Below are positions 924 to 35,159 of a stretch of 35,159 nt of DNA, piece after piece (within the stretch, counting starts at the first letter, position 1; each line of letters opens with the position of its first letter). The position numbers and the translations under genes were made by a program. The notes under the pieces were generated by a model, which saw only the letters and a program-made list of their open reading frames with translations, was not told the DNA's origin and searched no databases. The stretch covers positions 1 through 35,159 of the IMG/VR virus record IMGVR_UViG_3300028862_000071, one strand, 5' to 3'. This stretch comes from a virus.

Positions 924-984
924 TTCAAAAGTTTAATTACATTTACTCCTGTTTGTTCGTGTCTTATTGGTTGGTTAGGTTCGG

Positions 985-1017
985 GTCGCATCAATATTAT
1001 GTTGGTGCGACTTTTTT
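985..1017 (+). terminator. Strong intrinsic terminator of the left gene cluster
   Basis: A perfect 10-bp stem GTCGCATCAA/TTGGTGCGAC (one T-G wobble) with a 7-base loop TATTATG, followed directly by six T residues. It ends transcription of the 1-923 cluster and insulates it from the RNA element downstream. Confidence 0.9.
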
Positions 1018-1063: not shown

Positions 1064-1071
1064 TATCTTTG
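1064..1071 (+). promoter_or_regulatory. Bacteroidetes-type -7 promoter element before the structured RNA
   Basis: TATCTTTG matches the Bacteroidetes -7 consensus TAnnTTTG exactly. It sits in a very AT-rich gap just after a terminator, so transcription is expected to start at about 1077-1080. No TTTG occurs at the usual -33 distance; a TTTG at 1031-1034 is too far away (29-base gap). The first product is not a protein but the folded region that follows. Confidence 0.75.
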
Positions 1072-1077
1072 TACCAT

Positions 1078-1560
1078 TAAGTTCGTTGACGTTTTTTGAA
1101 AGACCGAGCAAGACCGGGGGGCAGAACCCCGCTTCTCCTCAAGCGTTCGCAATTGAAGCTAACCCGTCGCTTTAGTACGGTTAAATAACCGGTGGATGCC
1201 TCGACAGGCTGCAAAACTTATCCGAAAGGAAAGACGAAAAGCCAATCCGGTTATTTTTTAAAAATGGGGAAGAAACAGTATTGATTGGCGGGATGAGTAG
1301 ATTTACCGAGGACTTAGTAAATGCCAAACGGCAAAACAATTGAAATGAAAATGGCCGCCTAGGGTGGTACTTTTTCGAGTCGGGCGACCTTGAACAGCTT
1401 CCCGACTACAAACATTCTCGCAACGAAGGGGAAATCCCCGCTGACGTTTATTCGGCAGGTTTGACAACGAGATTAAATATGATACCGGAGTCTGTATTGT
1501 TTAACTTTGCCCGGACTATATTTACAGGGATGTCAGATGGATGATGAACTGAGGGGATTT
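1078..1560 (+). ncRNA. Large structured RNA (about 480 nt), family not recognised
   Basis: This protein-free stretch between a terminator/promoter pair and the next gene is much richer in G and C and in inverted repeats than the flanks. Perfect helices I can place: TTCGTTG 1082-1088 with CAACGAA 1421-1427 (long-range); AAATAACCGG 1183-1192 with CCGGTTATTT 1247-1256 (10 bp), enclosing GCCT-CGAC-AGGC and a TCC-GAAA-GGA GNRA hairpin; GGCGG 1287-1291 with CCGCC 1355-1359, enclosing ATTTAC/GTAAAT; AGTCGGG 1378-1384 with CCCGACT 1401-1407; and a nested set AAATCCCC 1432-1439/GGGGATTT 1553-1560, CTGACGT 1441-1447/ATGTCAG 1530-1536, CTGTA 1492-1496/TACAG 1523-1527. The outermost 3' helix ends right before the next gene. 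It could be a free large phage RNA of the GOLLD/ROOL kind or a very long regulatory leader. I could not match it to tmRNA, RNase P, or a group I or II intron core. Confidence 0.7.
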
Positions 1561-1591
1561 CAATTTGAACTTAATTTTAACCAATATACAC

Positions 1592-1999
1592 ATGGGCGCA
1601 ATCGCAGAAATTGAAGGAAAGCTGATAAAGATTGGCAAGGAAATAGATTCTAAATCCGGCACATTCAAGCACAAAGAAATCGAAATCTACATCGAGAATA
1701 CACGGGACTCAAAGTATGATGACTACCACGAGATTCAGGTGTCGGTAAATAATTATCAACTGCTCGAAAAGTTTAAAGTAGGATCCATGGTCAAAGCAAC
1801 CGTAAACCTGATCGGAAGGCCGTGGACGAACCCTAAGACCCAGCAAAGGATAATCTTCAAGACGTATAGCCTGTGGAAGATGGAGTTTGTAGGTGCTAAC
1901 AATGCGCCAAGACAGGACACAGGATTACAACAACGTGCTGAAAATGTTGGATTTGCGTCAGATACCAACAATGACGAAAACGAAAACCTCCCCTTTTAA
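1592..1999 (+). CDS. DUF3127-like OB-fold protein (putative ssDNA-binding)
   Basis: A 135-residue protein starting MGAIAEIEGKLIKIG. The body fits the DUF3127/OB-fold pattern: ...IEGKLIKIGKEID, KHKEIEIYIENT, then an FKVGSMVKATVNLIGRPW strand pair, QQRIIFKTYSLWKMEF, and an acidic disordered tail ending DENENLPF. An acidic tail ending in a hydrophobic tip is typical of SSB-like proteins, where it docks partner proteins. The frame is also open from a TTG at 1565, which has GAGGGG eight bases upstream; that start would put the ribosome site inside the last helix of the structured RNA. I prefer ATG 1592 because family members start at the first beta strand. It is the first gene after the RNA and is followed by its own terminator. 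Confidence 0.75.
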   Translation: MGAIAEIEGKLIKIGKEIDSKSGTFKHKEIEIYIENTRDSKYDDYHEIQVSVNNYQLLEKFKVGSMVKATVNLIGRPWTNPKTQQRIIFKTYSLWKMEFVGANNAPRQDTGLQQRAENVGFASDTNNDENENLPF

Positions 2000-26532: not shown

Positions 26533-27702
26533 ATGCCAGGATTAGAAGATTATTTAAACAATCTCGGAACCCAAACCGAAACAGAAGTATTGGAGCAAAC
26601 CGGGGAACAGGTCGAAGAACAGACTGAAGAAGTTGTCGAACAGACCGAGGAGCAGGTTCAGGAAACTGAAGCCGAAGTAGTAGAAGAAATTGCACAGCCG
26701 GAAGTTGACATCGACAAACTTCCCGTAGAAAAGAAATTAGCCATTGCCAGTAAACTGTTTGGCATGGAATTTACCACAGAAGCCGAGGTAGAATCATTTA
26801 AGGCTAAGTTCTCGAATCTGGAATCAGCGCAGAAACATATCGAACTTATTCCGAAATTAGTCGAAAAAATCAAATCATCTCAAAATATCCTCTCGTACTT
26901 CCCTGATGAGGCAGCCTATAAAGTTGCCCAGCTCAGTAAAAGCGAAGAATACAAGGGGAAAGAAGCTGTTATAAGCAAGGTGTTACACAGTAACATCGCT
27001 GAATTACCGTCACTCGAAGTGTTAGAACTTGCTGCAAGATTAGATGCCCCGGTAGGTGCCAGAAACCCGCTAAGGTTGAAATTACGCAGCATGGGATTAG
27101 ACCCGGATAATGTAACTGAGGGATACGATTCTTTGTCAGAGGATGACAAGGATCAAATCGATTATGCCGCAGCCGCAGAAAGAAAGGTTTTATCCAAACT
27201 TGGAGGTGATATCCAGATACCCGTCAGTGGGGATACCGATATTTTAGCAGAATACGAGCAGGAAAGTTTGCGCAGCAAGGAGGACTTAGCTGCAAAGCGG
27301 ACGAATCTTGCCCCTATAAGCAAGGCATTGGCAGCCGACCTGAAAGAACTGGAAATTACAGATGGATTCAAGTACGTTCTCGACATGAATTCCGAGGAAC
27401 GCAAAGAGTACGAAGATTTTATTTCCGACACCATTCTGTCAGGTGAGTACGACTTATCGACAGAAAGAGGTAAGGCTGAATTATGGGAAGCTGTTCAGGA
27501 TTTAGCTTACGTGAATAATCGTAAGAAAATTTCTGTGGCCCACGAAAAATTCATTCGGGAACAAGAACAGAGTGCCTTTCGTCAGAAGTCTAACAATGCA
27601 AGCCCGATCAAAAAAGACGAGCCTGCACCAATTAAGACTACGGAAGCCAAGCTGAGTCCGCAAGCTCAGGCAGTCATGGAAATGATTGAGGAAAGACGTT
27701 AG
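26533..27702 (+). CDS. Capsid scaffold-like acidic protein
   Basis: A 389-residue acidic protein. The first 60 residues are a Glu/Gln repeat (VLEQTGEQVEEQTEEVVEQ), then a helical body (PVEKKLAIASKLFGMEFTTEAEVESFKAKFSNLE, YVNNRKKISVAHEKFIREQEQSAF) and a basic end (SPQAQAVMEMIEERR). It lies between portal and capsid genes where scaffolding proteins are normally encoded. No protease domain is visible. A scaffold function is inferred from charge, helix content and position. Confidence 0.65.
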   Translation: MPGLEDYLNNLGTQTETEVLEQTGEQVEEQTEEVVEQTEEQVQETEAEVVEEIAQPEVDIDKLPVEKKLAIASKLFGMEFTTEAEVESFKAKFSNLESAQKHIELIPKLVEKIKSSQNILSYFPDEAAYKVAQLSKSEEYKGKEAVISKVLHSNIAELPSLEVLELAARLDAPVGARNPLRLKLRSMGLDPDNVTEGYDSLSEDDKDQIDYAAAAERKVLSKLGGDIQIPVSGDTDILAEYEQESLRSKEDLAAKRTNLAPISKALAADLKELEITDGFKYVLDMNSEERKEYEDFISDTILSGEYDLSTERGKAELWEAVQDLAYVNNRKKISVAHEKFIREQEQSAFRQKSNNASPIKKDEPAPIKTTEAKLSPQAQAVMEMIEERR

Positions 27703-32469: not shown

Positions 32470-35159
32470 ATGTCACTCAAAGCCCAAGTAGCGCCCCTCA
32501 GTCACGCCATAGATACAGATTCAGGCGACAAATACATAGATACGTCGAGAGGTTGGGTGCGAGATAGACTAAACTTGCGCCCTAATGAGCTTGACGGAAA
32601 TTCTCTGTTCAATAAGAAGCTAAAAGGAAATGTTCTTGCAGACATGACTTTGCCTGCCGGAGTAAACAAGTGTATTGGGTGGACTGCTGACTATAAGACT
32701 GAATCACTGATTTGGTTCGTATTAAATAGCTTGGGGGATCATTCTATTTACAGATACTTTGTAAATACCGATACAGTTCAGAAAGTGTGGTATCCCCTTG
32801 GAGGATTCAATCCTGAATTAGAATTTGAGGATGCAATTATAAAGGCATCTGTGGCTGACGGGAGATTGTATTGGATAAATGGCTCGCAACAGCCAAAGTC
32901 ATTCAATATTGAGAAGGCTGTAAATTTTACTAATTCGCTTGATGGAGATTCTTATACGGCAGATGACATGCCTGCCAAAGACATTATCTTCCCGTTAATT
33001 AAAAGACCACCTCAATTTGCTCCCGACATATCTTATACTAGCGTATACGAGGATGATGGAGTTACCATTAACTTTAATAATCTCAGGGGTAAATTATTCC
33101 AATTCAAATACTCCTACATATACGAAGATTTTCAACCGTCCGCATGGTCTCCGATATCAAAGATAGCTATACCTATTGGTGAATTGGATGGATTTGGCGT
33201 GTTTATTCAGGATGAAACATTTAATAATGCAATTAGGATATCGGTTAATACCGGGAATCATCTTGTAAAAAAAGTAATTATTGCTGCAAGAGATTGTTCT
33301 AATAGGGACGTCCCGGGTGATTTCTACCTCATTGATGAAATTAAAAAATTCGATTCTTCCGGCACATCAATAGTTGATTCTAAGAGTATTAAAAGCCTTA
33401 CGTTCCTAAACAATAAAATACAGAGTACGATTAATACTGAAATAAATAATCGGTACTGCGACGACGTTCCTTTTTCGGGATCGGATATTACGCTGTTAGA
33501 CGGAAAGTACACTGCTATATCCATGCCAGTAAAGGGATATGATCAGGTTGATGTAAATTACACCCTGGAAGCAAAAGAAGAAACGTTTTCCGTGGATAAT
33601 GCGGTTGTGCAGATGTTGGTGGAGATGTATCAAACCGACACACAATACGTATTCACACTCCACGTTCCAACCCCCTTGTACGGAAATGCCAAATATCAAA
33701 CAAACGTAGAACAACAAACAACTTACGGGGTTAATGCACGATCGTTCACTTACGAAACGACAAGTTCGGTATCCATGGAATCCGTTCGTGACGGCATCCT
33801 TAATTCTATAACAATAGATAGTCCTTATGATGTAATTCCAGTAGGAGACGACAGTATCCAATTAACCTTATACGTTGATTCAGATTATGGATTTGGAACG
33901 CCAACCTTTAATGGGTCTGTACAGACAGGCGCTTATCCCGGTTCTGTTTTGTCATTAAAGCGAGGACAATATCACCCGTTCGCCATAGTTTATAACGACA
34001 ATTATGGAAGATACGAGATTTGTTACGGGGATAAAAATATGTATTCCCCTATAAGCCTTGATATTCCTTCTGCCACATCCGGTAAGAGCGTGTATTGTGA
34101 AATGAAGATATATAACACACCCCCCGAATGGGCTACGTCTTATAGAATTTGCTACCTGCCAAATAAGTCATACCTGTACATGATGCAGATTCCTAAAATG
34201 GTAATTACCAAGGGGAATTCTACTCCATCGGGAAGTGTTGGCAACGGAATACCCGCAGATAAATTTCTTATTCAGCCAAATACATCCTTGGATATTGCAA
34301 GAAAGAATCGCAGTTGTATCATACCGGCTTACGTATGGCAAGAGGGTGATATGATGCGAATCGTTGGCGAGGATAAATCCACAAGAATACTTGGGGCTTA
34401 TCAGGCTAAAACAGGAACCGATCCCGAAGTCATTGAAGATGGATTTTTAATAGATCATTTCAGTGGCGCAGGGGATGACTATAATGCAATGTACATACCT
34501 CTCGCAGAAATATATCGACCGGTATCGGAAATAGCAGATAAAATATACTACGAAATTGGAGATGAATACCCAATAAAAAACGCAGGAACCGCACTTAGAT
34601 GTCATACTGCAAATATAGAAACCCAAGATGTTGATGCCGGACACCCTGCAATATTAAAACTCAATTTTGGAGACGTGTATTTACGTACCAGATATTTTAA
34701 GTATGCAAAAAAAATATTTGTAGGGGACAAGACAGACGTATCATCGCCTATTATAGTCGAAGATAAAAACATTAACGACTACTACGTGTCTTCCGGGATT
34801 AATCTTGGGCGGGCTGTAATAAAAATAGATTCTAAGCGAAAAGAATTACATCGTGTAGTCAGATCAGAAAATTATATCGAGGATTCAGAATACAACCAAC
34901 TTAATATATTTCTACCTCAAACAGCATTTTTAACCCTGAGTCAATCTTACGGCAAAATCACGGGAATAACGCAGACTGGCGAAGTATTGAAGGTTATACA
35001 GGAACACAAGGAAACGTCGGTCTACGTGGGTAAAACTGCCATAAAACAGGCTGACGGATCAAACCTTACTGTTATCTCTGATCAGGTGTTTGGAACGATC
35101 AATAAAGCTGAATCATTACATGGCACATCATACCCGAGGTCGACTGCATCCAATGACCG
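32470..35159 (+). CDS. P22 gp10-like tail stabilisation / muzzle protein, 3' end cut off
   Basis: Open from ATG 32470 to the window edge without a stop: at least 896 residues. The N-terminus (SGDKYIDTSRGWVRDRLNLRPNELDGN) and repeated WT...LIWFVLN...IYRY propeller-like strands resemble the beta-propeller start of tail-needle-associated proteins. Later hallmarks: LKRGQYHPFAIVYNDNYGRYE ('fk.G..h.fgivYyD..gR'), IYNTPPEWATSYRICYLPN ('PP.WA..Y.....KN'), and YGKITGITQTGEVLKVIQEHK (the 'GDtLkVyQEhK' segment). In crAss-like phages this position holds the P22 gp10-like stabilisation protein that caps the tail. P22 gp10 is about 470 residues; this one is far larger. Confidence 0.75.
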   Translation, partial: MSLKAQVAPLSHAIDTDSGDKYIDTSRGWVRDRLNLRPNELDGNSLFNKKLKGNVLADMTLPAGVNKCIGWTADYKTESLIWFVLNSLGDHSIYRYFVNTDTVQKVWYPLGGFNPELEFEDAIIKASVADGRLYWINGSQQPKSFNIEKAVNFTNSLDGDSYTADDMPAKDIIFPLIKRPPQFAPDISYTSVYEDDGVTINFNNLRGKLFQFKYSYIYEDFQPSAWSPISKIAIPIGELDGFGVFIQDETFNNAIRISVNTGNHLVKKVIIAARDCSNRDVPGDFYLIDEIKKFDSSGTSIVDSKSIKSLTFLNNKIQSTINTEINNRYCDDVPFSGSDITLLDGKYTAISMPVKGYDQVDVNYTLEAKEETFSVDNAVVQMLVEMYQTDTQYVFTLHVPTPLYGNAKYQTNVEQQTTYGVNARSFTYETTSSVSMESVRDGILNSITIDSPYDVIPVGDDSIQLTLYVDSDYGFGTPTFNGSVQTGAYPGSVLSLKRGQYHPFAIVYNDNYGRYEICYGDKNMYSPISLDIPSATSGKSVYCEMKIYNTPPEWATSYRICYLPNKSYLYMMQIPKMVITKGNSTPSGSVGNGIPADKFLIQPNTSLDIARKNRSCIIPAYVWQEGDMMRIVGEDKSTRILGAYQAKTGTDPEVIEDGFLIDHFSGAGDDYNAMYIPLAEIYRPVSEIADKIYYEIGDEYPIKNAGTALRCHTANIETQDVDAGHPAILKLNFGDVYLRTRYFKYAKKIFVGDKTDVSSPIIVEDKNINDYYVSSGINLGRAVIKIDSKRKELHRVVRSENYIEDSEYNQLNIFLPQTAFLTLSQSYGKITGITQTGEVLKVIQEHKETSVYVGKTAIKQADGSNLTVISDQVFGTINKAESLHGTSYPRSTASND

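Follow-up and report, generated by a model that had tools for sequence, protein, structure and literature searches.

Transfer-messenger RNA (tmRNA) rescues ribosomes that have become stuck and adds a tag to the incomplete proteins on them. Ribosome-rescue RNAs carried by phages are known but have received little study, and most of the two-piece examples in the literature come from marine or aquatic settings. Among bacteria, the permuted form is found mainly in the Alphaproteobacteria, Betaproteobacteria and Cyanobacteria; in a study of the methylophage Melnitz, 53 of the 133 unique tmRNAs counted in phages were two-piece, and 50 of these 53 came from marine or aquatic phages (PMC9004378). The Rfam model RF04321 represents the tRNA domain common to all permuted tmRNAs (PMC11915505), and phage DS6A carries a tRNA-like-only tmRNA, for which inhibition of tmRNA in E. 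coli has been reported (PMC11915505, PMC4131195). Our literature search for permuted tmRNA in Bacteroidetes phages, which was partial in coverage, returned no evidently relevant title.

The stretch analysed here, 35,159 nucleotides of viral DNA that we call the window, encodes a structured RNA at 1078-1560, but its class is not new. With a probability of roughly 0.93, the part at 1082-1427 is an ssrA gene in circularly permuted form, coding for a two-piece tmRNA, in a phage of Bacteroidota type. Two-piece phage tmRNA is a kind already published, and the window copy is a diverged addition to it. A search of the whole window against Rfam at the gathering cut-offs gave no match, and ARAGORN reported neither tRNA nor tmRNA in the window. 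At relaxed thresholds, RF04321 (tmRNA_permuted) matches 1081-1362 over the full model (1-213) with 41.4 bits (E=9.1e-9 when scored for the whole record), and RF01849 (alpha_tmRNA) matches with 37.2 bits (E=8e-9). Both scores lie below the gathering cut-offs of 47 and 50 bits, respectively, which are curation thresholds and no biological feature, and the family cut-off is passed by the closest relatives of the window copy. The full RF04321 match places the acceptor (3') half upstream of the coding (5') half. The tRNA-like domain, this gene order and the relatives are the demonstrated part of the tmRNA reading; the features are collected in Table 1.

Table 1. Features of the permuted tmRNA locus and its surroundings (window coordinates)
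Feature	Position	Strand	Remarks
Intrinsic terminator of upstream genes	983-1017	+	14-pair stem, then T run
Candidate Bacteroidota-type -7 box TATCTTTG	1064-1071	+	Transcript start would be ~1078
End-joining stem, 5' strand UUCGUUG (tentative)	1082-1088	+	Complementary to 1421-1427
Helix P2, 3' strand CCG(AG)CAA	1104-1111	+	Pairs with 1285-1291
T-arm	1115-1131	+	Stem CGGGG/CCCCG, 5 bp, loop GGCAGAA; Rfam match, 100% paired in relatives
Acceptor stem, 3' strand CUUCUCC	1132-1138	+	Pairs with 1266-1272
Discriminator position 73	1139	+	U instead of A; genomic UCAA, CCA not encoded
Intervening segment	1140-1265	+	Separates the two acceptor strands; removal expected
Acceptor stem, 5' strand GGGGAAG	1266-1272	+	5' end of coding piece
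D-loop-like segment AAACAGUAUUGA	1273-1284	+	Reads GAAACAGTATTGA together with G1272
Helix P2, 5' strand UUG(G)CGG	1285-1291	+	Partner of 1104-1111
Probable tag frame PNGKTIEMKMAA, then stop	1324-1362	+	Resume codon probably CCA at 1324
Post-tag hairpin AGUCGGG/CCCGACU	1378-1407	+	Perfect complement; place of P5/PK2
End-joining stem, 3' strand CAACGAA (tentative)	1421-1427	+	Approximate 3' end of coding piece
Tail / possible leader	1428-1562	+	Long imperfect hairpin closed by 1431-1439/1553-1561
SSB-like OB-fold protein gene	1592-1999	+	PHROG 4932 E=1.9e-14; Pfam DUF3127 E=1.5e-9

All seven acceptor positions (7/7) are paired, G3.U70 included, and a G.U at the third acceptor pair is the alanine identity mark. 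The two outer pairs of the T-stem covary among 35 viral relatives. The D-loop-like segment has its counterpart in the relatives L139-L141, where it reads GAAATAGTATTGA. The window copy departs from all other members of a set of 97 viral elements in its discriminator, since none of the others has a U at position 73. It is mainly because of U73, which could weaken charging of the window tmRNA, that charging is in doubt; CCA can be added post-transcriptionally.

A search with a pattern of the 5' half recovered the IMG/VR elements L139, L140 and L141, which adjoin or lie among tRNA genes, and a T-arm pattern recovered many more, including L196 (59.7 bits). These nearest relatives score 57.8-59.7 bits, above the family cut-off, and are permuted tmRNAs with A73 and no encoded CCA (ACAA). 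Like the window copy, all four have AAGAC before the T-stem, a GCAGAR T-loop and GAAAYAGTNTTGATT, and L196 additionally begins with UUCGUUGAYRUUUUUU at its 5' end, as the window copy does, and has the AACGAA end; they differ from it in A73 and in their tags, and the segments between their acceptor strands are shorter (61 and 96 nt versus 127 nt in the window). A loose pattern gave at least 120 permuted tmRNAs, mostly marine, which served as the comparison set; four pattern hits (L024, L142, L143 and L310) were rejected as chance matches that are not tmRNA.

We counted acceptor, T-stem and inner P2 pairs in 35 distinct viral sequences. Pairs of the tRNA-like domain were standard in 99.4% of cells, compared with 78.4% in shuffles and 40-55% when partners were slid. 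Two-sided changes occurred in 113 cells, where shuffles gave 29, and covariation scored 0.568 against 0.138 in shuffles. Some acceptor and T-stem columns say less than others because they were set by the search patterns and rows were required to have at least 6/7 acceptor pairs, whereas no pattern forced P2 or the outer two pairs of the T-stem. The inner three pairs of P2 were 97.1% paired in the 35 sequences, with two-sided changes at all three. Across 109 rows, P2 was 96.6% paired versus 65.7% in shuffles (maximum 71.3%), and the T pairs not forced by patterns were 100% paired versus 55%. The letters of P2 differ among the window (UUG(G)CGG/CCG(AG)CAA), L140 (UUG(G)CAA/UUG(AG)CAA) and L196 (UUACG/CGUAA), and pairing is kept in each. 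As the sequences are related, none of these figures is a probability.

Two further observations concern the viral set. Six permuted phage tmRNAs (L330, L333, L340, L342, L349 and L352) have C-G instead of G-C at acceptor pair 4 (GGGCC../..GGTCC) and keep G3.U70. Just upstream of many viral permuted tmRNAs (e.g. L015, L018 and L342) lies TATAAATA or ATAAATA, resembling a T4-type late promoter, which suggests late expression in those phages; the Melnitz permuted tmRNA, by contrast, is reported to be under an early promoter.

No close homologue of the window copy itself was found. With 1020-2010 as the query, annotated phages yielded no DNA match, homologues sought via the SSB-like protein were not recovered, and the nearest IMG/VR terminase relatives examined, several of them fragments, had no permuted tmRNA match; nor did the IMG/VR terminase relatives convincingly match the 900-2200 region. 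One 57.9-kb record with an identical terminase stops inside a helicase gene. Comparative support is thus limited to the shared domain and absent for the window's own intervening segment, post-tag hairpin and tail, and a typical PK1 was not recognised in the window copy.

In the coding half, the frame CCA AAC GGC AAA ACA ATT GAA ATG AAA ATG GCC GCC TAG ends in Ala-Ala-stop at the expected place of the tag and aligns with the GCA AAC GAC AAC of the common form. An alternative frame at this place reads AKRQNN and has no Ala-Ala end, and the PNGKTIEMKMAA frame is the likely tag. Its resume codon would be CCA (Pro), with one base more than in the relatives, whose short frames at the same place read (L)NDNVYTLGGVQMRSAA in L140 and AKVINLFSAPIRLAA in L196, each with Ala-Ala before the stop. 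The end-joining stem would connect the outer ends of both pieces; it stays tentative because it recurs in L196 only and not in the marine copies that share the 5' motif. In L196, a G/C hairpin and then a T-rich tail come after AACGAA.

The intervening segment, expected to be removed as in known permuted tmRNAs, has a folding z of -1.6. A resemblance by eye to a c-di-GMP-I riboswitch (GCAAA..CCGAAAGG..GACGAAAAGCC..CCGG) was rejected, as Rfam gave no match at E<=10 for the 128-nt stretch. The segment also holds the 10-bp stem (1183-1192/1247-1256) that the preliminary description had offered, together with 1378-1384/1401-1407 and 1082-1088/1421-1427, as evidence of structure. All three are exact complements, as claimed. 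As a set, however, the stems do not exceed chance: 7 perfect stems of 7 bp or more occur in the 485-nt region, where dinucleotide shuffles predict 6.5, a stem of at least 10 bp arises in 8/60 shuffles, and the folding energy of the whole region (z = -0.29) is no better than that of shuffles. Therefore, folding statistics alone establish no structured RNA here. The diagnostic helices, namely the T-arm and the acceptor stem, were absent from the earlier list of stems.

The same description had left the family unknown and pointed to the large ornate phage RNAs GOLLD and ROOL. The relaxed Rfam search instead returned tmRNA_permuted, and the homologues covary as a permuted tmRNA. A GOLLD/ROOL-like RNA of unknown class would suit the length of the non-coding stretch and the possible promoter and the terminators that flank it, but there is no match to such Rfam families even at E=10, the region folds no better than shuffles, and the tmRNA model explains 1081-1362, where the Rfam matches and covariation refute this reading; we consider it extremely unlikely.

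The upstream terminator is present, 1078-1560 contains no credible long open reading frame, and the OB-fold gene downstream is SSB-like. The proposed -7 box is there, and its location agrees with where the RNA homology begins at the 5' side, but the promoter call is weak by itself because TANNTTTG occurs 41 times in the window versus 36 expected. The terminase matches only Flavobacterium, Cellulophaga and Maribacter phages and one unclassified phage among 85 records, with 24-27% identity among the matches listed, and the phage is therefore of Bacteroidota type. At the right end (32470-35157), the apparent gap is coding, since an 896-aa frame runs past the end of the window.

No terminator was found between the tmRNA end and the SSB-like gene (1440-1592), the next one downstream lying at 2073-2098, and the two are likely to share a transcript. 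Structure in the tail is weakly supported: its hairpin, to which the nested set described earlier as closing at 1553-1560 belongs, has z = -2.0 alone, with 7/200 shuffles folding equally well. Searches for homologues of the tail and for Rfam matches gave nothing notable; the tail may serve the SSB-like gene as a leader, or it may be a cleavage site. Within it, GGGGAAAUCCCC can form a structure of its own (1428-1439) or instead pair with 1553-1561; these mutually exclusive states lie between the tmRNA and the SSB-like gene.

If the gene works as a permuted tmRNA, transcription from ~1078 would produce the acceptor (3') half before the coding (5') half. As in permuted tmRNAs that have been characterised, host tRNA-processing enzymes would cut at the acceptor ends and remove the intervening segment, leaving an acceptor piece of ~1078-1139, to which CCA would be added, and a coding piece of 1266-~1427. 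The acceptor stem and P2, perhaps with the end-joining stem as well, would keep the pieces together. Host AlaRS would charge the molecule through G3.U70, host SmpB and EF-Tu would deliver it to ribosomes that have stalled on mRNAs that are broken or lack a stop codon, and the putative tag PNGKTIEMKMAA would be added and the ribosome released. The benefit to the phage would most likely be that ribosomes stay available during the decay of host and early phage mRNAs.

The alternative that survives best is a decaying or repurposed permuted tmRNA that is not charged, either a remnant or a decoy that titrates SmpB and inhibits host trans-translation. It would account for a U73 unique among 97 elements, for the lack of an encoded CCA and for a score below the cut-off that the relatives exceed, and the DS6A RNA provides a precedent for a decoy. 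Nevertheless, the 7/7 acceptor pairs, G3.U70, the T-stem and P2 are intact, the tag frame keeps its Ala-Ala-stop end whereas the DS6A RNA has no tag frame, and L196 and L139-L141 also lack CCA and look otherwise intact. A working molecule is favoured over a decoy by the acceptor, P2 and tag frame, which are all intact, and we regard the alternative as unlikely. A variant of it, in which a diverged tmRNA, charged poorly or not at all, benefits the phage as a decoy or as an altered-tag form of host trans-translation and is co-controlled with the SSB-like gene through the tail hairpin, seems less probable still.

Of the two readings in the preliminary description, a free structured RNA with its own start has proved the better, and the leader reading, in which the long RNA would regulate the SSB-like gene, is very doubtful. 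The gene does start 30 nt past the last hairpin with no intervening terminator, and the tail z-score also speaks for a leader, but the tRNA-like domain would be left unexplained and, in the relatives, the neighbours of the RNA are tRNA genes or genes of other kinds; at most the final ~130 nt (1428-1562) could qualify. It is hardly credible that a one-piece tmRNA or fragment, as in the Cellulophaga phages phi38:1 and Calle_3, matches the permuted model by chance: RF04321 does give weak side matches (25-26 bits) on the true one-piece genes of these phages, which we rejected as permuted tmRNAs, but the window matches the full model with 41 bits, RF00023 is not reported there, and the 5' acceptor strand and D-like motif lie downstream of the T-arm.

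With this copy, the permuted form extends to Bacteroidota-type phages, some of whose cultured terminase relatives (Calle_3 and phi38:1) have one-piece genes. Diverged phage copies escape default tools (ARAGORN and the Rfam gathering cut-offs), and counts of phage tmRNAs are lower bounds for this reason. The combination of U73 with a CCA-less acceptor offers a test of how much drift a working tmRNA tolerates.

One-piece genes were also encountered in the course of the comparison. A GGCAG T-loop occurs in one-piece order in L189:498-853 (RF00023, 99 bits), L047 (minus strand, ~380 nt) and L152 (plus strand, ~363 nt), the order in the latter two having been read by script; L189 and L047 also carry the GAAATAGAATCGATTGG segment. 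The presence of GGCAG-type sequences in both gene orders bears on how permutation arises or reverts. In phi38:1 (NC_021796.1), an unannotated one-piece tmRNA lies at ~26803-27164 on the minus strand (L318:1713-2074; RF00023, 87.6 bits), with the hypothetical CDS gp041 annotated on the opposite strand; the Calle_3 tmRNA is annotated. A 642-kb uncultured phage (LR756502.1, a record without annotation) has an apparent one-piece tmRNA, recognised by eye, at ~231980-232360 (L314:258-640), with a GGCAGTG T-loop, an ACAA end and a frame ending in GCAGTAGCTTAA.

Among known systems, the alphaproteobacterial-type permuted tmRNA (RF01849; merged RF04321) resembles the window copy in its order of acceptor half, intervening segment and coding half, in the GGCRG-type T-loop, the GAAAYAG...GA after the acceptor, G3.U70 and a tag ending in Ala-Ala. 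The window copy differs from it in its sub-cut-off scores, U73, the lack of an encoded CCA, the probable Pro resume codon, a shortened P2 sequence and pre-tag stretch and its location in a phage of Bacteroidota type. The two-piece tmRNAs of marine phages, such as that of Melnitz, are likewise phage-borne permuted ssrA genes related to the alphaproteobacterial type, but they are mainly marine or aquatic, and the viral relatives found here mostly carry ACCA; the Melnitz RNA has a predicted glutamine riboswitch in its 3' domain (PMC9004378), whereas no Rfam riboswitch match was found at the locus analysed here. The Cellulophaga phages Calle_3 and phi38:1, terminase relatives from the same broad host group, also encode a tmRNA, but theirs has the standard gene order and a UUCGAUU T-loop.
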